Position numbers and translations under genes: made by a program. This document shows, in pieces, positions 10,732 through 59,456 of a DNA stretch of 64,000 nt (positions within the stretch are counted from its first letter, which is position 1; the number at the start of each line of letters is the position of its first letter). Under the pieces are notes generated by a model. That model searched no databases. It saw only the letters and a program-made list of their open reading frames with translations, and was not told the origin of the DNA. This DNA is from Oceanispirochaeta crateris (GTDB lineage Bacteria; Spirochaetota; Spirochaetia; DSM-2461), in the NCBI RefSeq assembly GCF_008329965.1, contig NZ_CP036150.1, positions 1,860,001 to 1,924,000 of the forward strand. The letters are read 5' to 3'.

Positions 10732-12084
10732 TTATACGTAACCCTGGGCTATCATAGAATTGGCGATTTTAATAAATCCACCGATATTGGCCCCCACAAC
10801 ATAGTTCACAAAACCGGTTTCGTCTTTTCCATACTTGACGCAGGTTTCATGAATATTCTTCATAATGACCTGAAGTTTCGCATCCACCTCTTCTCTGCTC
10901 CAGGTTAAGTGCAAAGCGTTTTGGGTCATTTCAAGCCCCGAGACAGCCACTCCTCCTGCATTAGCGGCTTTTCCCGGACCGTACAGAATTTTAGATTCCA
11001 GAAAAACTTCCACCGCTTCGGGAGTCGAGGGCATGTTGGCCCCTTCACTGATTACATAACAACCGTTCTTAACGAGGGTTCTTGCATCATCAACATCAAT
11101 CTCATTTTGTGTGGCACAAGGCAGGGCAATGTCACACTCAATACTCCAGGGACGTTGGCCTTCAAGGTAGCTTACCGAATACTTTTCTGCATATTCAGAG
11201 ATACGACCGCGACGAATGTTTTTCAATTCCATAACATACTGCAGCTTTTCTTCATCAATGCCATCAGGATCATATATGGTTCCATTTGAATCTGAAAGTG
11301 TGACAACTTTACCACCCATCTCTATGATTTTTTCAACAGAATACTGTGCCACATTTCCAGAACCTGAAATGGCGACAGTCTTCCCTTTAATACTGTCATT
11401 CCTTGTTTGCATCATTTCGTTTGCAAAATATACGGCACCATAACCAGTGGCTTCAGGCCTGATCAGGCTTCCGCCCCACTCCAGGCCTTTCCCTGTCAGG
11501 ATACCCGAGAACTCATTACGGATTCTCTTGTATTGTCCAAACATATATCCAATTTCGCGGCCACCCACACCAATATCTCCGGCAGGAACATCCGTGTTTG
11601 GTCCGATATGCCGTTGGAGTTCTGTCATAAAAGATTGACAAAAGCGCATAACCTCATTGTCCGATTTACCCTTAGGATCAAAATCTGATCCACCTTTCCC
11701 TCCCCCCATGGGCAGAGTTGTCAGGCTGTTTTTAAAAGACTGTTCAAAAGCAAGGAATTTTAGAATTCCAAGATTCACCGTGGGGTGAAATCGAAGTCCT
11801 CCCTTGTAAGGACCGATAGCACTGTTCATTTCAATCCTGTAGCCGCGATTGATTTGAATCTCACCTTTATCATCAATCCAGGAAACACGGAACATGATGA
11901 CCCGTTCCGGTTCTGTCATCCGTTCCAGCACCTTAGAAAATTTATATTCAGGATTTTCTTCTATAAAAGGCATCAACGATTCTACGACTTCTTTTACAGC
12001 CTGATGGAATTCAGTTTCACCCTGATTTCTGGCTATCACCTTTGCCATGAACTCATTTACTTTCACATCTAGAATATTTGTCAT
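10732..12084 (-). CDS. gdhA: Glutamate dehydrogenase (NADP-type, GdhA)
   Basis: 450 residues, the usual length of hexameric bacterial GdhA. ATG at 12084 follows GGGGAG. Substrate and catalytic motifs are clear: PMGGGKGGSDFDPKGKS (catalytic Lys) and PAGDIGVGGREIGYMFGQYKR. The dinucleotide fold follows with VAISGSGNVAQYS. The enzyme makes L-glutamate from 2-oxoglutarate and ammonium. It lies 130 bp after the NarL-type regulator gene on the same strand and ends at a strong terminator, so read-through from the signalling genes is possible but it probably has its own promoter. Confidence 0.96.
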   Translation of the reverse strand: MTNILDVKVNEFMAKVIARNQGETEFHQAVKEVVESLMPFIEENPEYKFSKVLERMTEPERVIMFRVSWIDDKGEIQINRGYRIEMNSAIGPYKGGLRFHPTVNLGILKFLAFEQSFKNSLTTLPMGGGKGGSDFDPKGKSDNEVMRFCQSFMTELQRHIGPNTDVPAGDIGVGGREIGYMFGQYKRIRNEFSGILTGKGLEWGGSLIRPEATGYGAVYFANEMMQTRNDSIKGKTVAISGSGNVAQYSVEKIIEMGGKVVTLSDSNGTIYDPDGIDEEKLQYVMELKNIRRGRISEYAEKYSVSYLEGQRPWSIECDIALPCATQNEIDVDDARTLVKNGCYVISEGANMPSTPEAVEVFLESKILYGPGKAANAGGVAVSGLEMTQNALHLTWSREEVDAKLQVIMKNIHETCVKYGKDETGFVNYVVGANIGGFIKIANSMIAQGYV

Positions 12085-12214: not shown

Positions 12215-12877
12215 TTATATTTTGATGATGTTATTGCGAATGCCGAATTTCACAAGATCTACGGCCGTTTTCAGATTCAATTTCTGCATGATATGATTTT
12301 TATGAGACTCAACAGTTCTAACACTGATATACAGTTTTTCAGAAATTTCATTATTGGTAAGGCTATCACCCCAGAGTTGAAGGATTTCCAGTTCTCTGGA
12401 ACTCAGACTGCTGACCCGGGAATTCTCAACAGAAACCTCCTCAGTTTGGAGATTGGAAATATATTTTTGCAACAACAGCTGGGTAATAGACTTGCTAAAA
12501 TAATCATGACCATTTCGCAGAGTATATACAGCCTCAATGAGGTCATTCTTTTCACAATCCTTGGATAGAAAACCCTTAGCGCCAGTTTTTATGGTTTTTA
12601 ATATTGTGCTCTCATTATCAGTTTCAGAAAGAATGAGAATCCGTATCCTTGGATAGAGTTTATTGAGTTTCTCAGAAAGCTTTAAGACAGGGATATTCAA
12701 CTCAGGCAAGTAGAGGATAAGAATGTTGATCTGCCTCAATCCAAAACAGTTCAATATATTGTCTAGAGAATTTTCCTTGAGGGAAATTTGAATATCCTCT
12801 ACATCCTCCATCAATTGACAGAGGCCCAGAAGGATTAATTTATGTTCACAAAATATCCCGACTTTGATTGTATCCAT
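12215..12877 (-). CDS. NarL/LuxR-type regulator with degenerate receiver domain
   Basis: 220 residues. The C terminus is a standard GerE/LuxR helix-turn-helix (LSSRELEILQLWGDSLTNN, then ISVRTVESHKNHIMQKLN). The N-terminal receiver lacks key residues. The acidic pocket normally read as DD is CE (FCEHKLI), and the phospho-acceptor Asp at the end of strand 3 is replaced by Tyr or Leu (ILILYLPEL). The Lys of strand 5 is kept (FLSKDC). It therefore probably does not use ordinary Asp phosphorylation. It begins 2 bp after the stop of the giant PEP-synthase-like gene, whose last codons contain its ribosome-binding site, so the pair is translationally coupled. Confidence 0.88.
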   Translation of the reverse strand: MDTIKVGIFCEHKLILLGLCQLMEDVEDIQISLKENSLDNILNCFGLRQINILILYLPELNIPVLKLSEKLNKLYPRIRILILSETDNESTILKTIKTGAKGFLSKDCEKNDLIEAVYTLRNGHDYFSKSITQLLLQKYISNLQTEEVSVENSRVSSLSSRELEILQLWGDSLTNNEISEKLYISVRTVESHKNHIMQKLNLKTAVDLVKFGIRNNIIKI

Positions 12878-12879
12878 GC

Positions 12880-15800
12880 CTACCCGTTTACCAGTACTAC
12901 CGATTCTTTTATTTTACCATCCATCAATATCCGAAGTGATTGCTCAAACCGGACATGTCTGAAGTACTGAGTTCTATGAATTTCTTCCTGCTTGTTTAAA
13001 GACTCCCAATTCACAAACTCAGAAACAGTTGTTTGATTCACCGAAAAATATCCAATATTCATAGAAGTAACATTATGAAAAAAATGGGAACCTAATGAAG
13101 AATCAAGTGGAAAATTCTCCAGACTGATTTCGACAATGATCTTAGCATTGGAAATTTGAGCCCAATTGACAGGAATACCCAAAAAAGGATCCCGGGTTCC
13201 CCATCTTCCGGGACCAATCAGGATATACTGTTTATTCTGTTCTACCATTACCCGGTTCAGATATTCAATCTCACCAGCCATTTCCAGTGTTTTCATATTG
13301 TTGAAGTGTTCATTGTCTATATAAATCACATCGTAAATATCCTGAATCTCTCCGTTTCCCAAACTGGTCTTTGTATACAAGAGGGTCTTTGACTTATCAA
13401 ACTGATCTATATCAAATTTTATACGGGCCTGACTGTCTACAATGGGTTTAGTCTGTAACAGGTAAAATGTGGGAAGCCCGTTATCAGCCTTGTGCAGATC
13501 AAGAGCATATTCAATTTCTATAGGAGCTCCCAATGCCTCTTTGATAATATTGAGGATGACCTCAATTGTTTTGGCCAGGGGAACATAGTCATACTTCAAA
13601 ATATTGGCGAAATTCAGGATTCTGGGTCCGCCGATAGAGAGCCCCGGAACAACTCGATCATTCTGCTGATCATAAACAGAAGCACAGTGCTTCAAAGTTC
13701 CATGCTTTTCGGCCTCACTGATATCCAGAAGCGCCAGTGATGCCAGCTCTCCCTCCCGAGCATAATCACGATTATTTTTCCGGCAATCCAGAGCATAAAA
13801 TTTGACCTGGGAACCGTGAATCAGGTCTTTTACGGAATACATATCAACATTGGGATAAACGGGTGAAAAACGGTAGGAGTTCATGCCATCCACAACATAC
13901 GAACCCAGCCCCAGTGCCGCCATGGCAAAACCCTCCTCCGGTTTCATATGGGCCACGGGATAATAGTTGTAAGAACAGGCAGTCCCGCTGATATGCGGAT
14001 AGTAATAATCGCCATGCTGCTGGCCCACAAGCTCCTGCAGAACAACCGCCATTTTTTCATCTTCCGCCTTATGGTGGGTGACCTTGAAATAAGACTTTGC
14101 TTCAGAAGAATAAACGGAGGCAAAAACAAGTTTGATGCCCTGCCTGAGGTTTTCCAGTGTCTGCTCCCTGTTTTCCTCACAATTGGGTATGATATAGGTA
14201 TGAAAGACCCCGGCAAAGGGCTGAGTGAAGGAGTCTTCCGACAGGCTGGATGACCTAATGGCGATCGGTTTCTGAACATGTTCCAGGAAGAAAACAAGCT
14301 TTTCTTCCAGCGACGGAGACAGTTGGCCCAATAAGAATCGCTCCTTGATAACATCAAAATGAACTCTGTCACCAATAATCAATTCATAGAGCTTATTATG
14401 ACGAATAAAGTGATCAAACTCATCTGTTCCGATGATGACAGTCTTAGGAGTTCTGATATTAATCAGTCCCGAGAGTGAAGCAAAATCGAAGTTATAAATC
14501 AGTGTGTTGATGAAAGCCAGCCCCCGCCCCTTGCCTCCGAGAGAACCATCGGCAAAGGTGATTATATTTTTTTCTTCAATATTCAAGGCCTCATCAAAAC
14601 GAAGGATTTTCCCTCTTTTCTTTGTTTCCCGATATTCTTTGATCATTTCAAGAATGGTGGATCTATGGGACAGGACATCTTCCATGCTCCCAATCCTGAG
14701 GGGATTGATGGCCTTGGCCAGCTGTATTTCCCCTCTGGCCATAAGCCAGATAGAATACTGATTTTCACAGGCATGAAGATAAAATGTCTCATCTGGAACA
14801 ACTGCCAGCTGTTCTTCAAACTCCTTGAGAGTTCTGGCTCTGCCAATCTGATTCCCGGCCTTGTCCCTGAAAATGAAATCTCCGAACCCGAGATAATCAT
14901 TCAGATACTTCGTTAGATCATTCAACAGGGATTCTGAGTTTTTGTTGATAAAATAGACCCCCAGATCATCCGCTTTTTGTATGTTTTTATTTTCCGAAGA
15001 TTGAAGGATAATGGGAACATTCAACATATGGGACTTTACATATTTTATAAATTTGAGACCTGCCGTTTTATCGAGGGTTCCCCCTTTTTCATACTCAATA
15101 TCAGAAATGACACACAGAAGATAATCTTTGTACTGATTGTATAGATGCATGGCATCTTCATAGTTTCTGGCCAGAAGGATTTTTGGCCTGGATCTCATCT
15201 TGCAAATCTTATCCAGCTCATTTTTTTCAACTTCGGGCAAAAGCTTCTGCACCTGTCCAAACACGATGGCATACAAAATCTGAAGGTATTTGGAGTAGTA
15301 CAAAGAAGAGTCTTCCACCAAAAGGATAACCCTAACCAGCCCGACCTTGGTATCATTGGCAACGTTAGCCTTATCTTCAATCGATTTCACGATGGCAAAG
15401 ATGATTTGTGAGTCTCCGTTCCAGAAAAATAGCTTGTCCAGAGTCTTGGAACTGTCCACCATTTCTTCAAAATATTTAATATTCCGTTTTTGATTGAGCA
15501 ACAGGTAAACAGGAAGAAAAGGAGCCTTTTCCTTGATTCGTTCACTCAAAGCAAGGGGAGCATCCCGGTCAATTCCGACCATAATCACCACGAGGTCAAA
15601 AGACTTCGTTTCCATCATTTCCAAGGCTTCTGAAGCAGTGGTCACTCCGGTTATCCTAGGCAAAGAAAACAGACTGTACTGGTAAATTTCACCCATGAAC
15701 CGTTCGAAAAATCCGTCTTCACTTTCAAGTATGAAGGCATCGTAGAGGGTGGCCACAAAAAGGATCTCTTTCACCTTGTACTTCATCATATCCAAATAGA

Positions 15801-17448
15801 TATATTTATCGAGAACCTGTTGATTGAAAAACAATTGCAGGGGCTGCTTATTGGTAACAAGAGACTTCTTGTACTCCTCCTGCTTTTCAATTTCGACCTT
15901 TTTATGAATATTTCTCCTGTAGATATCACGGCCCTTGCTGTTATTCAGATATCCAGTGACCAATTTCCCGATATTTGCCAGAAGTTCCCGTTCTTCCTTG
16001 AGAAACGGCCCCTCATAGGCCTTTGGGAATTCCTTTAAATAGACAACTTGAATATACCCTTTTTTATTGTCGATGGTGACGAAGTTTTCTTTCTGGCTCC
16101 ATGAAGTTTCTCGGAACCCAGCTGTCTTGTAATCCATGCCTTCATAATGAATATTGATTCTAGTCTGTCTTGGATATTGCCAGGAGCGGCAAAGATGATG
16201 GGCAATACTTTGTAGTGTTTCTTCTACAGGTCTAGATTCCGCTATCAGCTGGGATGTCTTGTTGATCCCCCGGAGCTCCTTTAGCCGTTCTTTGTTTTCA
16301 GACAACAATCTGTTGAAGATATCTGCCCCAGCAGAACCGGATATGAGATTGGAAAGGTTAATAAGTAAATCTCTCTCTTCCTTCAAGAAGGGTCCATCAT
16401 CCTCTTTGGGGCACTCTTTGAGAAGGAAAACTTCAATGAGACCTTTTTTGCCTCCCGGAGATTCAAAATCCTGACTTTGTTTCCATTCTGTTGCTTTAAA
16501 TCCGGGGCTAGTATACTCCTTGTTGTCAAACTTGATCCTGATCACCGTGTGTTCAGGATACTTCCACGACTCAGGAAGGATATTGCAAAGCTTCTGCAAA
16601 GAGTCTTCAAAGCTGGAACTCTCCTTTAAGACTTCCGAGGTTCTGTTTATACCCCTCAATTCCTTTAACCGTTCTGTATTTAAAACAAGGAGTTCCCGAA
16701 GAGATCGGTTGGAAGAAGTTCCGGAAATAATGGATCCCAAAATATTCAGGAGAGTCCTTTCTTCCTTTAAAAAAGGCCCTTCAAAGGCGGGAGGGAATTC
16801 TTTGAGATAAAAGATCTCTATCCTCCCCTCTTTGTGATCAGGAGTCTCAAATAATTGATTCATTCTCCAGGGGGTTTCTTTAAAGCCCCGGCTTTCGAAT
16901 ATCTGATCATTAAAAGAAATCCTCACAACTGTGTCTTCCGGATACTGCCAGGCTTCGGGAAGTAAGGAGCAGATCTCCTGCAGGGCCTCTTCCAGGGTGC
17001 TGTGTTTTTGCAGAATCAGGTTTGTCAAACTGATGCTCTTCAGTTCTTTGATGCGTTCATTGTTATCATGAAACAGACGTTTGAGCCTAAACTCAGAAAT
17101 ATATCCGGTTATGAGATGACCCAAGAGATGAATAAAATCATGAGAAAACAATGACTCATGAGGATCCGTATCATGAGAATAAAAAATATCTAGAAAGCCG
17201 TGGTTCTCATCCGGAAGCTTCAGAGGGAGTCTCTCAAACCAGGGAGTTTCTTTAAAACCAGGGCTAAGAGATTCAACCTCGTCTACCTTGACTCTCACAA
17301 AAACCCTTTGATTAGGATGTGCGGAAACAGAAATCAAAGCCACTATTTCGCCAAGGATAAGCTCACAGGGTTGATTCAGATCGATTGCACCGTAAAGACG
17401 GCGGATAAGATCCATTTGCAGAGTATGAACGGCTTCTATTGGAATCAT
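12880..17448 (-). CDS. Giant signalling protein: four GAF-like repeats, two receiver-like domains, PEP-synthase-type ATP-binding domain
   Basis: 1522 residues. Residues 1-515 hold four related repeats of about 125-140 residues; repeats 2-4 share GPFLKEER, a preceding LKEFP/LKECP and ERLKELRGIN, and the first is the most divergent. Residues about 559-695 look like a receiver without phospho-acceptor. Residues about 705-850 look like an intact receiver (LLVEDSS, VISDIEYEKGG, LQSSEN, FINKN). Residues about 960-1336 match the ATP-grasp domain of PEP synthase and pyruvate phosphate dikinase (GGKGRGLAFI, IRSSSLSEDS, closing LQTKPIV). The phosphohistidine swivelling domain and the C-terminal PEP/pyruvate barrel are absent; the last 185 residues contain IGPGRWGTRDP. 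It is thus unlikely to be a metabolic PEP synthase. A role as an ATP-using sensor is inferred from the domains and the coupled regulator. Confidence 0.85.
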   Translation of the reverse strand: MIPIEAVHTLQMDLIRRLYGAIDLNQPCELILGEIVALISVSAHPNQRVFVRVKVDEVESLSPGFKETPWFERLPLKLPDENHGFLDIFYSHDTDPHESLFSHDFIHLLGHLITGYISEFRLKRLFHDNNERIKELKSISLTNLILQKHSTLEEALQEICSLLPEAWQYPEDTVVRISFNDQIFESRGFKETPWRMNQLFETPDHKEGRIEIFYLKEFPPAFEGPFLKEERTLLNILGSIISGTSSNRSLRELLVLNTERLKELRGINRTSEVLKESSSFEDSLQKLCNILPESWKYPEHTVIRIKFDNKEYTSPGFKATEWKQSQDFESPGGKKGLIEVFLLKECPKEDDGPFLKEERDLLINLSNLISGSAGADIFNRLLSENKERLKELRGINKTSQLIAESRPVEETLQSIAHHLCRSWQYPRQTRINIHYEGMDYKTAGFRETSWSQKENFVTIDNKKGYIQVVYLKEFPKAYEGPFLKEERELLANIGKLVTGYLNNSKGRDIYRRNIHKKVEIEKQEEYKKSLVTNKQPLQLFFNQQVLDKYIYLDMMKYKVKEILFVATLYDAFILESEDGFFERFMGEIYQYSLFSLPRITGVTTASEALEMMETKSFDLVVIMVGIDRDAPLALSERIKEKAPFLPVYLLLNQKRNIKYFEEMVDSSKTLDKLFFWNGDSQIIFAIVKSIEDKANVANDTKVGLVRVILLVEDSSLYYSKYLQILYAIVFGQVQKLLPEVEKNELDKICKMRSRPKILLARNYEDAMHLYNQYKDYLLCVISDIEYEKGGTLDKTAGLKFIKYVKSHMLNVPIILQSSENKNIQKADDLGVYFINKNSESLLNDLTKYLNDYLGFGDFIFRDKAGNQIGRARTLKEFEEQLAVVPDETFYLHACENQYSIWLMARGEIQLAKAINPLRIGSMEDVLSHRSTILEMIKEYRETKKRGKILRFDEALNIEEKNIITFADGSLGGKGRGLAFINTLIYNFDFASLSGLINIRTPKTVIIGTDEFDHFIRHNKLYELIIGDRVHFDVIKERFLLGQLSPSLEEKLVFFLEHVQKPIAIRSSSLSEDSFTQPFAGVFHTYIIPNCEENREQTLENLRQGIKLVFASVYSSEAKSYFKVTHHKAEDEKMAVVLQELVGQQHGDYYYPHISGTACSYNYYPVAHMKPEEGFAMAALGLGSYVVDGMNSYRFSPVYPNVDMYSVKDLIHGSQVKFYALDCRKNNRDYAREGELASLALLDISEAEKHGTLKHCASVYDQQNDRVVPGLSIGGPRILNFANILKYDYVPLAKTIEVILNIIKEALGAPIEIEYALDLHKADNGLPTFYLLQTKPIVDSQARIKFDIDQFDKSKTLLYTKTSLGNGEIQDIYDVIYIDNEHFNNMKTLEMAGEIEYLNRVMVEQNKQYILIGPGRWGTRDPFLGIPVNWAQISNAKIIVEISLENFPLDSSLGSHFFHNVTSMNIGYFSVNQTTVSEFVNWESLNKQEEIHRTQYFRHVRFEQSLRILMDGKIKESVVLVNG

Positions 17449-17570: not shown

Positions 17571-17670
17571 GAAAGAACAGGCCAGATTATTTTCTATTTC
17601 AGAGACAATCATTGAAATACCGCTACAACAGGAGTATCATGATTCATGACTAACAACGTTGGGAGAGTTT

Positions 17671-18921
17671 ATGAAAAACAATAAGGCAGATATGCGGTGG
17701 ATTCTAAACGGGAAAAAAGATCTTACTTCGGTCATTAAGCAATTTCCCCTTGAAGTCGTACACGAAGTACGGAATTTCCATTCTCAGATTCCTGGATATA
17801 AAATATCGCCCCTTAAAAACCTGAACAACCTGGCACGCATGTTCGGTGTCCGCGGCATCTGGATCAAAGATGAAGCAGAACGACTTGAGTTGAATTCTTT
17901 CAAGGTTCTGGGCGGATCCTTTGCACTCTATAAATTCATACAAAAAAAACTGGGTCTTGAAGGACAGCCTCTCACATACGATTACCTGATATCCAAAGAA
18001 GTCAGAGAGAAATTGGGAGAAATCACTTTTGCCTCGGCAACCGACGGAAATCATGGACGTGGCATTGCCTGGGCGGCGGGAAAGTTGGGCCATAAATGTG
18101 TAATTTACGTACACTCCGAGACCTCTGCACCTAGAATACAAGCCATCCGTGATTATGGAGCCACAGTAAAAATTATAGAGGGAAATTATGATAATGCCGT
18201 AAGGCAGATTGTGGTAGACTCGGCCAAAAATGGCTGGAATGTGATATCCGACACATCCTGGGACGGATATGAAACTGTCCCCACTTGGATCATGCAGGGT
18301 TATACCACCATGTTTCTTGAAGCCCAGGAACAATTCAGCGGTCAGGGAATCATTAAACCCAGTCATATTTTCGTTCAGGCCGGAGTGGGTGCCCTGGCGG
18401 CCTCCGTTATAGGTTTCTACCACAGCCTCTTTGGTGAAAAGGCTCCGATTTGTGTCGTAGTTGAACCTGAAAATGCGGACTGCCTCTATGCCTCGATGAA
18501 GCAGAATGACGGGAAACCCCATAGCATCACGGGGTCATTGGATACAATCATGGCCGGACTGGCCTGCGGAGAGCCAAGTCCCCTGGCCTGGAATATCCTG
18601 AAAGAAAAAACAGATGCCTTCATATCCTGCCCAGACTACATTGCGGCCAAGGGGATGAGAATATATGCAACACCTCTAAAGGGTGATCCATTTATTGTAT
18701 CGGGTGAATCCGGTGCGGTAACCCTGGGAGCTCTCATCGGTATTCTGACCGAAGAAGGCTTGAAGGATCTCAAGGAGTCATTAAAACTGGACAGCCAGTC
18801 ACAAATTCTCCTCATTAATACCGAAGGTAATACAGACCCTGATCATTTCAGACAGATCATCTGGGAAGGAGCCAATCCCGTCCCAAAAGAGTTCTGGACT
18901 AAAAAGAACGGAAAGGCCTGA
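17671..18921 (+). CDS. dpaL: Diaminopropionate ammonia-lyase
   Basis: 416 residues from ATG at 17671, preceded by GGGAGAG; an in-frame TTG at 17659 is less likely. It is a fold type II PLP enzyme. The PLP-binding Lys78 lies in NSFKVLGGSFA, the phosphate-contacting region includes ATDGNHGRG, and the Gly-rich loop is QAGVGALAASV. These motifs and the overall length match YgeX/DpaL, which converts 2,3-diaminopropionate to pyruvate and two ammonia. The product feeds carbon and nitrogen metabolism, and gdhA lies nearby. It is divergent from the signalling gene. Confidence 0.9.
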   Translation: MKNNKADMRWILNGKKDLTSVIKQFPLEVVHEVRNFHSQIPGYKISPLKNLNNLARMFGVRGIWIKDEAERLELNSFKVLGGSFALYKFIQKKLGLEGQPLTYDYLISKEVREKLGEITFASATDGNHGRGIAWAAGKLGHKCVIYVHSETSAPRIQAIRDYGATVKIIEGNYDNAVRQIVVDSAKNGWNVISDTSWDGYETVPTWIMQGYTTMFLEAQEQFSGQGIIKPSHIFVQAGVGALAASVIGFYHSLFGEKAPICVVVEPENADCLYASMKQNDGKPHSITGSLDTIMAGLACGEPSPLAWNILKEKTDAFISCPDYIAAKGMRIYATPLKGDPFIVSGESGAVTLGALIGILTEEGLKDLKESLKLDSQSQILLINTEGNTDPDHFRQIIWEGANPVPKEFWTKKNGKA

Positions 18922-42850: not shown

Positions 42851-42943
42851 GTTTTGCCAGCCAAATTTTTGGTTTTGCTTAATAATCGGTAAGATGAGGC
42901 TTATTCTTGAAAACCCTCTTTGTATGTTAATCATAGTACACAA

Positions 42944-45900
42944 ATGAAACAGAAAACATTTCTTTTTATTATAACAGCTTATTTCTTCCTCCTCGTCTTC
43001 TCCCCTCTACTGATTGGAGCCCAGGAAACAGAGGATATTACCAAAGAAGAAAATGAGACTTATCCCCTGGATTCGGAAGAGGGAGAAGAGGCACCGGAAC
43101 ATATATTTGATTTGGATTTAGGCGGTGTAAATACAGATATTTTCTGGGAAGGGTTCTGGCGTTACAGCCTGAGCTACGGAACAGGGTATGAAATAGACAG
43201 TGGTGAATTTATTTTTCCACAAGCCTATCCCGGCCTCCAGCAGGGACTTGAGTTCTCCCAGGAACCAGATTTTTTCCTCTCCGTCTTATTGATGAATCAC
43301 TACTTTCTAGAAACCTCATTTACTCAGGGTTATGATAAAAACACCTATGCCATGGGCTATGTGGGAGATGAGTCAACCTCACTCAAGGAAGTCAGAATAG
43401 GAAATGCAGGGATCGGAATCGGTGAATACGAAGGCATAGATGTTTCCAGTCCAAAATACAATACTCCCGGAATCATGGCCTCCTTTGAGACCACCAGGTC
43501 ACGCCATGAGATCATGGTACGCTATGACCCGACAGAAATGGAAACCAAGGAGTTTCTGGGAGAGTATGAGATTGATGGAGAGACATTGGAACTCTCCTCT
43601 TTCCAGGATGGCCAGAATTTCATCCTGCCCAATACAAATATTTCCAATCTAACGGTATATCAACAAAGCAGTACTGGTGAATACACAGGATCAGACGGCC
43701 GGCGCTACACCAGCCGCGACATTGCCTACACAGCCGACCTGACCGAGGGATTTGTAAACCTACAGGAAGCCTCTTCCGGGCGTGTTCTTGTCTATTATAC
43801 CCAGGGAGGGAGTCCTGTAGGATCCTCCGGAATATCGAAAGACTTTATCATGGCTCCAGACGCCAGAGGCAGGCCCGACCCCACAGAAGACTTACTGCCC
43901 TTTGGCTGGGATGAGGAGAATCCCTATGACCTGGATGGGCGAGACTTCAGGGATAGCTCATTGGTGACAATTGACGGACATGATGCCCTGATGGTTCATA
44001 ATCCAGGGGAGTTCAGCAACTTCCAAATGTATAATCGCTACCTCTTTTATACCAACCTTCCCTCCGAATCCTGGAGGACCATCGTATCCCTTGTCGATTC
44101 CGACGGCCTTTCAGAAGATGACCTCCCCTATGTCTACCTCAGAGAAACAGATGATCTGGACAGGCGGATTCTCCGGGTGGTATTGGAGAACACTGAAAAC
44201 AGGAGTCCCGACAACAGAGTGCCTTTTGCTCCGGGGAACCCCGAGGTTTACGGCCCGGGACGGGTCAGCGACGGCGATGAAATCTCCAGGGAACTGCTCA
44301 TTGCGGTGAAAAAAGACAGCAGCAACTACTATTTGGGAACCAACCTGATTGAGGGCTCTGTCAAGGTCTATGTGAACGGCATAGAAGACAAGACTGCCGA
44401 AGTGAATTATGAGACGGGTGAAGTTTTTTTCGCACGATATATTTTTCCGGAAGATAGTATTGAGATTGACTACAGAACCGAATCGGTCGGCCTGACTGGA
44501 GGCGATCTCTTCCTGGCTCAGGGGAACAGACTTTTCCTGAATGATAACATGACAGTGGAACTGGCAGAGTCTCTCCGCTGGACTCTGCCCGAAGATCAGG
44601 TGACCGACGAAGCCGGTGAGAGTCCGGGTCTGATAGAACTGGCAGGAACCTGGTTCTACGACACGGAGAACCTGGATATGATGGTCAATACCAGCCTGAA
44701 TATTTCCACATCCGACACGGCGGGAAACCTCAGGCTTTTGGGTATGGATGAGAGTGGGTTTTCATTCTCCCTCACCGCTGATCAGCTGGTTCCTTCCGAG
44801 TTGTCCCTAACACCAAGTCTGACAGATACCCCTGATTCTCAAGATAGAAAGGCCCTGATTTACAAAGACTTCACCTCTTCAAATAACACCGGACAAACCT
44901 ACCTCAATGACTACTCCTGGGCTGGAGTCTCCATAGACACAAGTGAAGAGGGGCCATCCATAGCCGCATCATCATCGGATGATCCTTTTTCATCCAGGGT
45001 CATGGTCATGTCCTATGATCTGGGTAAAGAAGAGTGGTCCGCCGGAGATTTTCTGCCGGTGGACTCGGATATGATTGATCTATCAAGCTATTCAGAGCTT
45101 AGCTTTTACCTCTATAGGCAGAATTTGGGCGAGGATAACCTGAAACTCAAAGTCAGAATAGGTGAAAATGGCGAGTATGACGATCTGGATGAAGACGGAA
45201 GTACTGATTCCGGAGACTCTCAATATGTGATTGAGAGGGACCTGACAGACCAGATACCCGCCGATGCCCAAACCTGGGAGCAGGTGAGCATCCTTCTCAC
45301 CGAAGAAGAACAGAAAAAACTATCCAGGGTGCGGTCTTTCCGCTTTATTTTGGAATCAACAGACTCAGGAAGGTCTGAAGGAGAACTCCTTGTGGGAGGC
45401 TTCAGAGGAGAAGGCTCTCCCCTGCAAATGTCAGTGATCGATGCAACAGACACCCAGAGAGATGCAGAAGATCTGGATGTCCGGGAGCGAAGCGACACAG
45501 TTCTATCCCAGAAATTTCCGGAAGTTCTCTCCATATTTCACCCCGATGATGAAGATCAGAAGGTCCTTGAACTCTCTTGGGGAGCCGAGAGCACCGGCGG
45601 TGAAGCTCTTGATTCTGAAGATACCATCAGCGGGACGGCCTGGTTCAACGCTGTTCCTGTGACCGACTATGGAAGTTTCAGCCTCTATGTCAAAAATGAC
45701 AGCACCCAGGGAGCCGGAAGCTTCTCTGTGACAGACAGCAGCGGAAAAGGTGTCATAGTGGAATATGAACCCGGATCGACTCAGTGGGAAAAGCTGACTG
45801 TGGACTTACAGAACGGAAGTGCCGGATTCTCCGGAGCCAGCCGTGTCACGGCCTTAACCATGGATAAGGATGCACGAGACTTCTCACGGTTCAATATGAC

Positions 45901-47641
45901 CCGCAGCGGAGTTCCTTCCGCTTCCATGGAGATAGATGAAGTCCATTTTTCCGATCCCACCTTTTCTACGGGTACATCCATCGAAACACAAGTGGAATAC
46001 AGTAAACCCGGCGTGATTTATACCTCTGCAGGAGGCTTCCCTCTTATGGCAGACTTCGATGTCATGAGCCGGTTCAACTATACCAACAATACGTCAGATT
46101 CCTATTTTAATACAGATGAGAATCGTCTTGAGAGTCAGCTATCCAGTGGAATAGATCTTTTAAATATCCGTCTTCAAGGTGATGTCGAAATGGTATGGAC
46201 TGAAGATGAAACCCTCTATTCGGGAGGTCATCTTGTGAGGATTCCCTCCCAGTCCCGCTTTGGCTGGGTTTCGGACAGCTACTCCCGCACTTTTTATCCG
46301 GGTGATGACACAATGGCCCGGTCCAATGTGATCCATTTAAGCCCCCTGCCCTCTCTCACCCTGGAAGCCGAAGGATCCAGCACCGCCTCAGAGGATGAGA
46401 TCATACAGGGATGGGGAGGGTTGCTAGACATCAGTCCCAAATCCAAGAGCAGCATGGATTTCAGTTTTGATCTGTATCAGACATCAGATTGGGTTTCCGA
46501 TTCCACAGACTACTTCACTGAGTGGTCCCGTGATTTTCAATACCTAAAACCTCTTAAGGAGGATATTAGCAGCAGAGAAGGCCTGAGTGCCCTCAATGTC
46601 CAGCGTCAATCCCAAGCTCTAGGCTTCAGCTGGGAAACAAGGTTGGAATATGATGCCCTCCAACAGGTGGAATGGCAGCAGGAAAACCGCTGGTATTCCG
46701 ACCTATCTTTTCCAATGGAAATTTCATCATCAACGCGCCCGTGGACAATCACTCCGGGTTACCGGCGTGAACTTGTGCAGAAAGTCTACCCGGAGCAGAA
46801 CAACAGCTTTGGAGATGACTTGGACACCCTGTTCTCAGTGACGGCAAGTCAGTTTCCTTTGGTAAACTTCATTCCATTTTATGAAATTTTCGGACATGAC
46901 AATATGGGAGACTTTGAACGAACTCTGACAATGACAGATGATTCGGAATACACACCTGAGGCCTATATTGGATTTACACGTTTTTCAGGATCTCACTACA
47001 GTGATCTTTTTATCCCGTCAAGCATGGATTTTGCAGTTCAGAGAGAGTACTACAAGAAGGATGATACCCTATATCTGGAGAATAACTGGTCTGTTCAAGT
47101 CCTCCAGACGGCATTGAATCTCTTTGGTGAATGGGGACGTTATCCCCATTTTGACTTCTATGCTACGGACGAGATCTCCAGTTCACTCCAACTCGTTATG
47201 GGTGGGCGTGATCTATGGACACCAGAGCCTGAAGAGATTATCTATCAGAATTATCTGACCCTTAAGGGTGAATCCGATTGGGAAATTGTCCTGGATAACA
47301 GGTACACCCAAAAATGGCTGAGCGAATATATACAGGACGACTTCCAGCTCATCTTCAGGTGGTTTGAGCAAGAACAGCCCTATTTCAATTTCCCCTTCAT
47401 GGATTACCTTGTGATGAAGCCTTCACGGATGCAGCATGAAGAGAAACTGATCTTCACGGGATACTTTGACCAGGACGACAGTACAGAGACCAGCTTCGAC
47501 ACGACCCTCAGACATGAATCCAAACTGGTCATTACTGGTCTGGGGTCAATCACAGGCTGGATGGCTCTGGGCCTGGGAGGACAAGAAGAAGTCTTCCGCA
47601 ACGGCTTTGAGTTGGGGCTGGAGCTGGAAATGAGTTTCTGA
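42944..47641 (+). CDS. Very large outer-membrane beta-barrel candidate, SprA-like
   Basis: 1565 residues from ATG at 42944; a TTG at 42920 precedes it. A signal peptide (about 1-26) ends near GAQ. The body is rich in beta strands with alternating polar residues. The C terminus ends ELGLELEMSF, with the terminal Phe typical of proteins inserted by the BAM complex. Residues about 155-195 (LKEVRIGNAGIGIGEY) and about 465-520 (IEGSVKVYVNGIE followed by VNYETGEVFF and IEIDYRTES) resemble repeats in the SprA/Sov translocon of Bacteroidota. This similarity is tentative. It is followed by mutL 13 bp downstream. Confidence 0.65.
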   Translation: MKQKTFLFIITAYFFLLVFSPLLIGAQETEDITKEENETYPLDSEEGEEAPEHIFDLDLGGVNTDIFWEGFWRYSLSYGTGYEIDSGEFIFPQAYPGLQQGLEFSQEPDFFLSVLLMNHYFLETSFTQGYDKNTYAMGYVGDESTSLKEVRIGNAGIGIGEYEGIDVSSPKYNTPGIMASFETTRSRHEIMVRYDPTEMETKEFLGEYEIDGETLELSSFQDGQNFILPNTNISNLTVYQQSSTGEYTGSDGRRYTSRDIAYTADLTEGFVNLQEASSGRVLVYYTQGGSPVGSSGISKDFIMAPDARGRPDPTEDLLPFGWDEENPYDLDGRDFRDSSLVTIDGHDALMVHNPGEFSNFQMYNRYLFYTNLPSESWRTIVSLVDSDGLSEDDLPYVYLRETDDLDRRILRVVLENTENRSPDNRVPFAPGNPEVYGPGRVSDGDEISRELLIAVKKDSSNYYLGTNLIEGSVKVYVNGIEDKTAEVNYETGEVFFARYIFPEDSIEIDYRTESVGLTGGDLFLAQGNRLFLNDNMTVELAESLRWTLPEDQVTDEAGESPGLIELAGTWFYDTENLDMMVNTSLNISTSDTAGNLRLLGMDESGFSFSLTADQLVPSELSLTPSLTDTPDSQDRKALIYKDFTSSNNTGQTYLNDYSWAGVSIDTSEEGPSIAASSSDDPFSSRVMVMSYDLGKEEWSAGDFLPVDSDMIDLSSYSELSFYLYRQNLGEDNLKLKVRIGENGEYDDLDEDGSTDSGDSQYVIERDLTDQIPADAQTWEQVSILLTEEEQKKLSRVRSFRFILESTDSGRSEGELLVGGFRGEGSPLQMSVIDATDTQRDAEDLDVRERSDTVLSQKFPEVLSIFHPDDEDQKVLELSWGAESTGGEALDSEDTISGTAWFNAVPVTDYGSFSLYVKNDSTQGAGSFSVTDSSGKGVIVEYEPGSTQWEKLTVDLQNGSAGFSGASRVTALTMDKDARDFSRFNMTRSGVPSASMEIDEVHFSDPTFSTGTSIETQVEYSKPGVIYTSAGGFPLMADFDVMSRFNYTNNTSDSYFNTDENRLESQLSSGIDLLNIRLQGDVEMVWTEDETLYSGGHLVRIPSQSRFGWVSDSYSRTFYPGDDTMARSNVIHLSPLPSLTLEAEGSSTASEDEIIQGWGGLLDISPKSKSSMDFSFDLYQTSDWVSDSTDYFTEWSRDFQYLKPLKEDISSREGLSALNVQRQSQALGFSWETRLEYDALQQVEWQQENRWYSDLSFPMEISSSTRPWTITPGYRRELVQKVYPEQNNSFGDDLDTLFSVTASQFPLVNFIPFYEIFGHDNMGDFERTLTMTDDSEYTPEAYIGFTRFSGSHYSDLFIPSSMDFAVQREYYKKDDTLYLENNWSVQVLQTALNLFGEWGRYPHFDFYATDEISSSLQLVMGGRDLWTPEPEEIIYQNYLTLKGESDWEIVLDNRYTQKWLSEYIQDDFQLIFRWFEQEQPYFNFPFMDYLVMKPSRMQHEEKLIFTGYFDQDDSTETSFDTTLRHESKLVITGLGSITGWMALGLGGQEEVFRNGFELGLELEMSF

Positions 47642-52513: not shown

Positions 52514-53890
52514 ATGAATATTATCATCATCCTTATAATAATTTTCGGCACTGCGCTGGCCGTTTTTACCTTTTTTATCATCAAATCTGTAATGGCTCCA
52601 AAAAAAGTGGCGTCCCTGGCTGATCTTGTTAAACAAAATAAAAATGCTCAGGCCATACGTATCGCCAAACACATACTCATCAAGGAGCCAAGGAACAGTG
52701 AGGCGCACTACCTCCTGGCCAAGGCTCTTGAACAGGATGGGAAAGCCGAGCTGGCTCTGATGGAACTGAAGACAGTCAGCAATCTCAACGATTTTAAGGG
52801 ATACTGCAAAGAAAATGAATTTCGCCCAAGAATAGCGGCTCTCTATGACCAGTTTAACTTTCCAGAGGAAGCTCTTAAGGAGTACCTTCTGTTGATCAAA
52901 ATGGAGCCCTATAACCCCGATTATTACTTCCGGGCTGGTGCTCTTTTCGAAAAACGGAAAAAAAATCCCCAGGCTGCCCAGTATTATAAAAAGGCAATTG
53001 ACATGGACCCCCGCAATTCAGAGGCTCATTTCAGCCTGGGAATTCTGCTCTATAAGGGAAAGAGGTACAACGATGCCAAGATTATATTGACCAAGGCACT
53101 GAAACTGAAACCAGACAACTACAAGGCTCATTTTTTCCTGGGCCGTATGCATAAAGAAGCTCAAAACTATACGAGTGCAATCCAGTCTTTTGAACAGGCC
53201 CAAAAAGATAGCGAATTCAAGATAAAAGCACTCATAGAGAGAGGAATCTGCTTCATAGCCATCAAGAATTTTGACAAGGGAGCCACCGAATTGGAACGGG
53301 CAGTAAAACTGTCTCAGGATAAACCCGATGATTCAACCCTCTTTGCCCGCTACTATTTGGCCATGTGTCATGAAAAACGCCGGGATATTGAAAAAGCCAT
53401 TGAACAGTGGGAGGCAATTTACAGCAAGAAGCAATCCTTCAAGGATGTAGCCGAGAAATTGAGCCAATTCCAGGAACTCAGGGAAAATGACAGGATGAAG
53501 GATTATCTAACCTCATCCAACCAGGAGTTTCTAAATCTGTGTTCCAAATTGATGGAAGTCATGAAGTTCAGCATTTCTGATCAGAATCTTACATCCCTCG
53601 GCTGCCAGATCATAGCCACCGAAAAATCGATAGGACAGTGGCGGAATACAAAAAAAATGCCGCACCTCATCCATTTTTACAGAATTACTGATAATATAGA
53701 TCAACCTCAGGTTCGGGAATTCCATGAGGATTTGCAGAAACTGAAGGCATCGCGAGGTATTATGATCACAAGCTCCCAATTTACAAGAGCTGCCAAAGAT
53801 TTTACCGAGTCCAGGCCAATTGAACTTATCGATAAGGGAAAATTGCAGGATCTTCTTGAAAAAGCCGATAAAGTCATACTGCGGAAATGA
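52514..53890 (+). CDS. Membrane-anchored TPR protein with degenerate Mrr-type nuclease domain
   Basis: 458 residues. One N-terminal membrane helix (about 2-22) is followed by about seven TPR units (35-300), including NSEAHFSLGILLYKGKRYNDA. Residues about 345-458 resemble the Mrr catalytic domain. KASRGIMITSSQFTRAAKDF and IELIDKGKLQDLLEKA match its last strands and helices. The Gln-x-Lys catalytic strand instead reads HLIHFYR, and the Asp is not evident, so nuclease activity is unlikely. The stop overlaps the next start (ATGA). Confidence 0.8.
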   Translation: MNIIIILIIIFGTALAVFTFFIIKSVMAPKKVASLADLVKQNKNAQAIRIAKHILIKEPRNSEAHYLLAKALEQDGKAELALMELKTVSNLNDFKGYCKENEFRPRIAALYDQFNFPEEALKEYLLLIKMEPYNPDYYFRAGALFEKRKKNPQAAQYYKKAIDMDPRNSEAHFSLGILLYKGKRYNDAKIILTKALKLKPDNYKAHFFLGRMHKEAQNYTSAIQSFEQAQKDSEFKIKALIERGICFIAIKNFDKGATELERAVKLSQDKPDDSTLFARYYLAMCHEKRRDIEKAIEQWEAIYSKKQSFKDVAEKLSQFQELRENDRMKDYLTSSNQEFLNLCSKLMEVMKFSISDQNLTSLGCQIIATEKSIGQWRNTKKMPHLIHFYRITDNIDQPQVREFHEDLQKLKASRGIMITSSQFTRAAKDFTESRPIELIDKGKLQDLLEKADKVILRK

Positions 53891-57515: not shown

Positions 57516-57575
57516 AACTAATTATACCATAATCTGTCGGTATACGTGAATACGTCCATGACATCAGAAGGAATT

Positions 57576-59456
57576 ATGAATCTCCAGGAAAAAGCAGAGA
57601 CCCTGAACATAAGCACCCACACACTGAGGAACTGGAACAAACGCAGGGAATCTGCCGAAAAAGCCTCCACAACTCTTGTGAGCCGGGCCAACAAGCTCAA
57701 TTCATCCCGCCATATCCTGCCGGTGGAACTGCTTCAATTTAAGGAAAACAAAGAGTCCCTCCAGAACATCCTCGATGTGCTCCTCCTTCAGCCTCTGAAT
57801 CTGGAAGGAAAAATTCTTCTCTTCTCCCTGCATTTTCTTGTATTAAAAGGTCTCCTCCAGCTCAGGTCTAACTCCACGACTCAGTGGAACCTGCTTGGCC
57901 TAATCAGGGAGTCTTCCTGTGCTCCTGTGATGCAAAGAGAACTCAAGATGCGCCTGAGCCGCCTTCCCCAAGACGAAAAGCACCGGTCTTTAAACATGCC
58001 TCGTGATTTTTTCTCTTACCAAAATCAGAACCTTCAACGTGAAACCGACCTGCCCGGTCTTATATACCAGACCCTCAGGAATGAGGGTACCAAGTCCAGA
58101 AAGGGAGCCTGGTTTACCCCTGCAAGCATTATTGATTCAATGATAGCTCCCTATGTGAAGCAGACAAATGGTCTCTATGATCCTTGTTGCGGTTCCGGAC
58201 TATTTCTTTGCCGTTTTGCCGAAAAGAAAGGGAATCCAGATTGCGTCAGAGGCATGGACAGTGATCCAACATCCGTATTCCTGAGCAGGATCAATTTGTT
58301 TTCAAGGTTTCCCCAATGGGAAAACTTTAATAATATCAGAGAAGGAAACAGCCTTAAAGTTTCCACCTGGCAGCTAAACAGCGACGACCTAGTTGCCACG
58401 AATCCTCCCTGGGGCGCCCATCTCAGTGCAGAAGAAAAAAAAGAGATGCTCCAAACCTACCCTGAAATCAGCTCTTCAGAATCAGCCTCTTTATTTTTGC
58501 TACGCAGCACCCATGAAATGCATCCCGGTGGAGTTGCTACCTTTCTGCTTCCTGAATCACTATTTTATGTTAAGACCCACAAAGACATCAGAACCTGGAT
58601 ACTTCATAAGGCTCCTCCCCTGAAAATCATGGCAAGGGGGGCACTCTTCAAGGGGGTTCTCACAGCCGTGGTCTCCTGTGATTTCCGAAAAGAGGGAAAG
58701 CAGAGAAAGGCAACAGTCTTCACAACCCGTAAAGAGAAAATAAAGGGCTCTGAAACACTGTATAAGAAAGAAACTCAGCCTTTGAACCGTTTTGTACAGA
58801 ATCCGGATAAGATCATCAATTTCCACTGCTCCCTGGAAGCCCAGGAGCTCATCAAAAAAATACGGAATTCAGAGGTGAAACAGCTCCCGAAGGGCTGTCT
58901 GTGGTTATTGGGGGTTGTTACTGGAGACAACAAGCGTTTCATCTGTGAATCCCGAGAAGAAGGAACCCGCCCTCTACTCACCGGAAAAGACCTCTATCCC
59001 TTCGGACACCATCCTGTTTGCCACTACCTTAAGATCGATGACGGTCCGCTGCAGCAAAACCGCCCACTTGAAGAGTACGCACGCCCTAAACTTGCCTATC
59101 GTTTTATAGGTTATAAACCCGTCTTTTCAATAGACAGGAAGGGATTTATCACATTGAACTCGGCCAATGGATTCGTGCCTCCCCGAGTAGAGGATTTGGA
59201 AGAGTTTGCCTTCTGGTATAACTCCTCTCTCTTTCGCTTTCTGTGGTTCAATCAATACCGCTCGGTCAAGATGCTCCGCCGACATCTGGAAGAACTTCCA
59301 CTCCCCCTTTGGGACAAACATGAATTGAAAGAGGTTTCGAACCTTGCCAAAAGAGCAGAAAAACGGCAGGATGTTCAATCTCTTATGGATGAAATGATTT
59401 TCAGACATTTTAAACTGACAAAAGAGGAAATAAGCATTGTCTTCAACCAAAGCTGA
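57576..59456 (+). CDS. Solitary N6-adenine DNA methyltransferase with HTH and specificity domain
   Basis: 626 residues from ATG at 57576 with AGAAGGA upstream; earlier in-frame codons at 57546 and 57558 are less likely. The first 25 residues look like a MerR-type helix-turn-helix (ETLNISTHTLRNWNKRRE). SAM motif I is DPCCGSGLF (Asp202) and the catalytic motif is NPPW (276-279). The last about 180 residues resemble TaqI-type target recognition (FIGYKPVFSIDRKGF, QYRSVKMLRRHLEELPLP). It methylates the N6 of adenine in a specific site. No restriction enzyme is beside it. It overlaps pth by 20 bp. Confidence 0.88.
   Translation: MNLQEKAETLNISTHTLRNWNKRRESAEKASTTLVSRANKLNSSRHILPVELLQFKENKESLQNILDVLLLQPLNLEGKILLFSLHFLVLKGLLQLRSNSTTQWNLLGLIRESSCAPVMQRELKMRLSRLPQDEKHRSLNMPRDFFSYQNQNLQRETDLPGLIYQTLRNEGTKSRKGAWFTPASIIDSMIAPYVKQTNGLYDPCCGSGLFLCRFAEKKGNPDCVRGMDSDPTSVFLSRINLFSRFPQWENFNNIREGNSLKVSTWQLNSDDLVATNPPWGAHLSAEEKKEMLQTYPEISSSESASLFLLRSTHEMHPGGVATFLLPESLFYVKTHKDIRTWILHKAPPLKIMARGALFKGVLTAVVSCDFRKEGKQRKATVFTTRKEKIKGSETLYKKETQPLNRFVQNPDKIINFHCSLEAQELIKKIRNSEVKQLPKGCLWLLGVVTGDNKRFICESREEGTRPLLTGKDLYPFGHHPVCHYLKIDDGPLQQNRPLEEYARPKLAYRFIGYKPVFSIDRKGFITLNSANGFVPPRVEDLEEFAFWYNSSLFRFLWFNQYRSVKMLRRHLEELPLPLWDKHELKEVSNLAKRAEKRQDVQSLMDEMIFRHFKLTKEEISIVFNQS

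Follow-up and report, generated by a model that had tools for sequence, protein, structure and literature searches.

The window analysed here, a 64,000-nucleotide stretch of Oceanispirochaeta crateris DNA, contains three genes on the minus strand in the order kinase, luxR and gdhA (Table 1). The first encodes a receiver/ATP-grasp protein, referred to below as the kinase, and luxR begins only two bases after its end; a 130-bp spacer lies between luxR and gdhA. A first-pass annotation of this DNA had reported a 1522-residue protein followed at this distance by a LuxR-type gene, and the open reading frames bear this out. It had overlooked gdhA as the gene that comes next.

Table 1. Features of the kinase–luxR–gdhA locus, in window positions.
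Feature	Position	Strand	Basis
Receiver/ATP-grasp protein (kinase), 1522 aa	12880..17448	-	ORF, Pfam, orthologues in relatives
N-terminal repeat 1, shortened, GAF-like	17074..17421	-	Alignment
N-terminal repeat 2, GAF-like	16669..17052	-	Alignment
N-terminal repeat 3, GAF-like	16288..16674	-	Alignment
N-terminal repeat 4, GAF-like	15913..16299	-	Alignment
Receiver 1, degenerate, residues ~560-665	15454..15771	-	Pfam Response_reg 599-662; Foldseek, PleD-like tandem receivers
Receiver 2, intact (E712-D713/D783/S817/K836), residues ~703-855	14884..15342	-	Alignment
Codon of predicted phospho-acceptor Asp783	15100..15102	-	Alignment of relatives
DUF5752-like linker domain, residues 871-963	14560..14838	-	Weak Pfam match
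PPDK_N ATP-grasp domain, residues 969-1342	13423..14544	-	Pfam, Foldseek, alignments
Uncatalogued C-terminal domain, residues 1337-1522, GPGRWG and GSHFFHN motifs	12883..13440	-	Profiles, model, alignment
Codon of invariant His1455	13084..13086	-	Present in 160/160 relatives reaching His1455
LuxR/NarL-type pseudo-response-regulator, 220 aa, acceptor Asp replaced by Tyr	12215..12877	-	Pfam, alignment
gdhA, NADP-type (small) glutamate dehydrogenase	10732..12084	-	NCBIfam PRK09414, 772 bits (cut-off 536); Pfam

The N-terminus of the kinase aligns as four mutually related repeats of ~125 aa, the first of them shortened. Pfam makes no GAF call on these repeats, and GAF-like is used as a description only. 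Receiver 1 gives a sub-threshold Pfam match and does not keep the receiver residues. In receiver 2, Asp783 (D243 in core numbering, to which 540 is added for the full protein) is kept in 157 of the 158 aligned relatives with a letter at that column. The DUF5752-like stretch matches at E 0.07 here and at E 1e-4 in relatives. The PPDK_N match that follows is strong (E 5.7e-37) and the ATP-grasp site is intact, consisting of K973, R1065, E1311, E1313 and Q1332. Conservation of this site among relatives is complete for the residues counted, with K433 and R525 in 164/164, E773 in 162/162 and Q792 in 161/161 (core numbering). The core was modelled with a pLDDT of 82.6, and Foldseek places its receivers nearest the tandem receivers of PleD and its ATP-grasp domain nearest rifampin phosphotransferase (5hv6, target TM 0.62) and PPDK. 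The NCBIfam model for full-length rifampin phosphotransferase, whose cut-off is 999 bits, scores only 17, and the Pfam search found neither PF00391 nor the PEP/pyruvate TIM barrel. Alignment, Pfam and the ATP-site residues thus uphold the architecture first proposed: four repeats, two receivers of which one is degenerate and one intact, and an ATP-binding domain of the PEP-synthase type. Four loci (L027-L030) form a second branch of ~870 aa, in which an N-terminus that looks KaiC/RecA-like, with no Pfam match, replaces the receivers; the ATP-grasp and C-terminal domains are kept, and glutamate dehydrogenase (GDH) is near in three of the four.

The last ~185 residues were modelled with a pLDDT of 88.3 and a pTM of 0.87. 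No credible Pfam family was found at the C-terminus in any of 74 relatives, profile search returned no PDB relative for the domain, and comparison of the model with the PDB by Foldseek gave no match at E <= 0.001 (best E 0.015, TM 0.28). These residues thus form an uncatalogued, new protein domain with a confidently predicted fold. Its 44 matches in the 198 genomes sampled from the phylum are all fused to ATP-grasp, none standing alone. Arg875, Glu900, Ser911, His915 and Tyr927 (core numbering) are invariant wherever relatives reach them (R875 in 161/161; E900, S911 and H915 in 160/160), even in the ~870-aa branch, whose N-terminus is unrelated to receivers. An invariant G(S/T)HFF at a predicted helix start and a C-terminal 'VxxDGKxG' tail had suggested a hidden phosphohistidine domain, whose presence would have told against the first-pass reading. 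We looked for one in the last 185 residues and rejected it, as hhalign gave a probability of 0.6%, Foldseek showed no such fold and Pfam nothing credible. The annotated absence of both this domain and the PEP barrel therefore stands. A functional analogue of the phosphohistidine domain around His1455, within the invariant (S/T)-H-F-F motif, is possible. We infer that the C-terminal domain may supply half of an active site, with His1455 as the candidate phosphoryl carrier or catalytic base.

To place the kinase in context, we considered its neighbours. The core is widespread, with at least 584 confirmed candidates across named genomes. The matches listed include Bacteroidota, Spirochaetota, Acidobacteriota, Gemmatimonadota, Cloacimonadota, Krumholzibacteriia, Aminicenantes, Riflebacteria, Myxococcales, a Desulfobacteraceae bacterium and a Hodarchaeote. 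Of the 26 core loci that relatives in the class provide, 23 have GDH within the 1.5-kb flank; two of the other three end at contig ends (L005 and L016) and one, L019, is a true exception. Linkage statistics are affected by fragmented assemblies and by the similarity-based selection of the named set, and a sample of 198 genomes drawn evenly from the phylum is the least biased. There, 32 of 44 kinase copies have GDH at a distance of ~3.5 kb or less by estimated gene spans, the branch with the different N-terminus included, and for the remaining 12 no GDH lies on their contig. Two kinase-bearing genomes in this sample show no GDH, one of them only 77% complete. GDH leads the recurrent neighbours by a wide margin (53 of 110 loci), followed by LuxR (19) and the oxidoreductase subunits Kor (14). 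Neither GDH nor KOR lies within 2 kb of 78 of 164 kinase copies, many for want of flank. For GDH to lie next to a kinase by chance, our rough estimate is < 1% per gene. The linkage extends to Bacteroidota, Acidobacteriota (Geothrix), Gemmatimonadota, Cloacimonadota and a Hodarchaeote. GDH and kinase occur in all four relative orientations (tandem upstream, tandem downstream, divergent and convergent), which argues for repeated selection for proximity and not for one frozen operon. The kinase represents an ATP-grasp family not described before that is very likely tied functionally to GDH, and it is probably a regulator of ammonia assimilation.

The divergent neighbour of the kinase, at 17659-18921 (+), encodes an ammonia-releasing diaminopropionate ammonia-lyase (PRK08206, 536.6 bits, cut-off 276), and a gene resembling it occupies the same place in L002. 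Nitrogen metabolism is therefore represented on both sides of the kinase gene. Farther along the window, a 1573-aa open reading frame with no Pfam or NCBIfam match (42920-47641, +) lies directly upstream of a mutL-like gene. The gene for a TPR protein with an Mrr-type endonuclease domain (52514-53890, +) is followed, 3.6 kb on, by that for an N6 DNA methylase whose specificity domain is TaqI-like (57546-59456, +), and these two genes are possibly a restriction/defence island.

The LuxR protein has a GerE DNA-binding domain (Pfam E 1.2e-17) and a receiver match. Its receiver pocket is C-E, as annotated, and the acceptor column, read earlier as Tyr or Leu, holds Tyr. Alignment of 20 orthologues, all adjoining or near an ATP-grasp gene, shows Tyr, Asn, His, Ser, Val or Ile in place of the acceptor Asp in 19. 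The one that keeps Asp, L043, adjoins an ATP-grasp gene too, so the proposed counter-case of Asp-keeping regulators apart from that gene did not appear. From its residues, normal phosphorylation of the regulator is impossible, and the earlier exclusion of an ordinary phosphorelay to LuxR stands with it. The view of luxR as the defining partner of the kinase is not supported by the comparison. The gene is present only in some spirochaete and Bacteroidales loci and missing from most orthologous loci, whereas GDH is kept across phyla. This bears on a possibility in which the kinase acts mainly on or through the adjacent pseudo-regulator, as a transcription switch independent of phosphorelay. The two-base spacing and the loss of the acceptor Asp would fit such a switch, as would the position of luxR, directly upstream of gdh and co-directional in all 12 loci where both are present. 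We consider it very unlikely, since GDH remains in the many loci that lack luxR and the ATP and C-terminal sites are just as invariant there. Given its constant position relative to gdh and an orientation to the kinase that can vary (L041), we take luxR to be a lineage-specific addition, with gdh a likelier target than the kinase. Promoter and terminator scans gave results at chance level.

Some loci carry two kinases. Four Bacteroidales loci (L047, L048, L060, L068) have the order GDH-kinase-kinase-GDH, and three others (L040, L052, L056) have KorA-KorB-kinase-kinase-GDH. KorAB accompanies a kinase in the absence of GDH in L063, L070, L073, L074, L075 and L077. KorA scores above the NCBIfam cut-off for the alpha subunit of 2-oxoacid:acceptor oxidoreductase, and the Kor substrate is probably 2-oxoglutarate. 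In the even phylum sample, three spirochaete genomes have two GDHs of different type, each beside its own kinase. The second copies of the tandem pairs cluster in the tree, along with the single Bacteroidaceae copies. One kinase per enzyme suggests direct action on the enzyme. We lean slightly towards a family that serves GDH and, in some Bacteroidales, 2-oxoacid:ferredoxin oxidoreductase through direct post-translational control. NuoE/NuoF/GltD-like redox genes also recur near the ATP-grasp gene in some Bacteroidales (L050, L051, L059, L061, L104). A small Hpt-like protein is encoded 1-5 kb from it in four Bacteroidota loci (L074, L076, L078, L081; Pfam Hpt E 1e-4, just below the cut-off), a possible phospho-donor to the intact receiver.

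The same loci could be read as a pathway cluster, with the kinase a metabolic enzyme that acts on a metabolite of this node (2-oxoglutarate, glutamate or ammonia) and binds it through the C-terminal domain. PEP synthase and PPDK act on a 2-oxoacid, GDH and KOR both handle 2-oxoacids, and the invariant residue set of the C-terminal domain looks active-site-like. However, the receivers and the other variable N-termini point to regulation, the PEP/pyruvate barrel is absent, and a shared metabolite would not lead one to expect a separate copy for each enzyme; we regard this reading as unlikely. Less likely still is a chaperone-like factor that assembles or activates GDH and KOR with the help of ATP and leaves no lasting covalent mark. 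GDH of many bacteria folds unaided, and a receiver favours switching over assembly. One protein per enzyme would nevertheless suit such a factor, and comparison of linked with unlinked GDHs revealed no residue marking the linked ones as a modification target, that is, no specific acceptor residue. The title of Baggio and Morrison 1996, as it stands in the reference list of PMC4539542, would suit it too.

That title concerns a trans-acting gene affecting Bacteroides GdhA. A single strong kinase match is the rule in our Bacteroidaceae sample (about 52 of 61 genomes). Among 29 new loci from this family, gdh is <= 1.5 kb from the kinase in 12, two of which (L209 and L212) have it on both sides, and for many Bacteroidaceae copies GDH is not nearby. 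As far as a title can tell, the trans-acting gene may be a member of the kinase family, which makes the family a testable candidate and gives a lead, not an identification.

Direct control of the enzyme by the kinase, our preferred reading, could work as follows. A signal would arrive at the intact receiver through Asp783 and, in the O. crateris lineage, also at the N-terminal repeats. This input would gate the ATP-grasp/C-terminal domain pair, which would use ATP to switch the neighbouring enzyme post-translationally, by modification or in some other way, perhaps with the invariant His1455 as phospho-carrier. The pseudo-receiver gene between kinase and gdhA would most likely add phosphorylation-independent transcriptional control of gdhA. 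Modification of a protein or a metabolite by the ATP-grasp domain, as first guessed, is plausible. In its most specific form, the proposal is that a receiver-gated ATP-grasp and a His-bearing domain phosphorylate or covalently modify GDH and KOR in many phyla and at least one Hodarchaeote, and that this explains the trans-acting control of GdhA in Bacteroides. We put this form forward tentatively, as somewhat doubtful. GDH is the junction of carbon and nitrogen metabolism. In the literature we found no paper joining the kinase protein to GDH, and no post-translational GDH regulator described for most phyla that have the core. Should the proposal hold, enzyme regulation would become a further, new role for the dikinase ATP-grasp fold, and bacteria of gut, soil and sediment alike would be shown to share a new protein domain.

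Several known systems are close to this locus. Rifampin phosphotransferase (Rph) and PEP synthase have the ATP-grasp domain and ATP-site residues in common with the kinase, and 5hv6 is its best PDB sequence relative (3e-9). The kinase, however, has no detectable swivelling phosphohistidine domain and no rifampin- or PEP-binding domain, and carries the new C-terminal domain instead. PleD likewise pairs a degenerate receiver with an intact one in tandem, but its output is GGDEF rather than ATP-grasp. AceK, the isocitrate dehydrogenase kinase/phosphatase, and the PPDK regulatory protein are regulators dedicated to an enzyme of central metabolism. They offer a possible working analogy for the proposed function of the kinase, with a different domain make-up. 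GarA and PknG of Mycobacterium control GDH post-translationally, at the 2-oxoglutarate node; these are an FHA protein and a Ser/Thr kinase, without ATP-grasp. Finally, atypical LuxR-type response regulators that lack the acceptor Asp combine a pseudo-receiver with a GerE domain. The regulator described here has the same composition, and its gene is situated between an ATP-grasp gene and gdhA.
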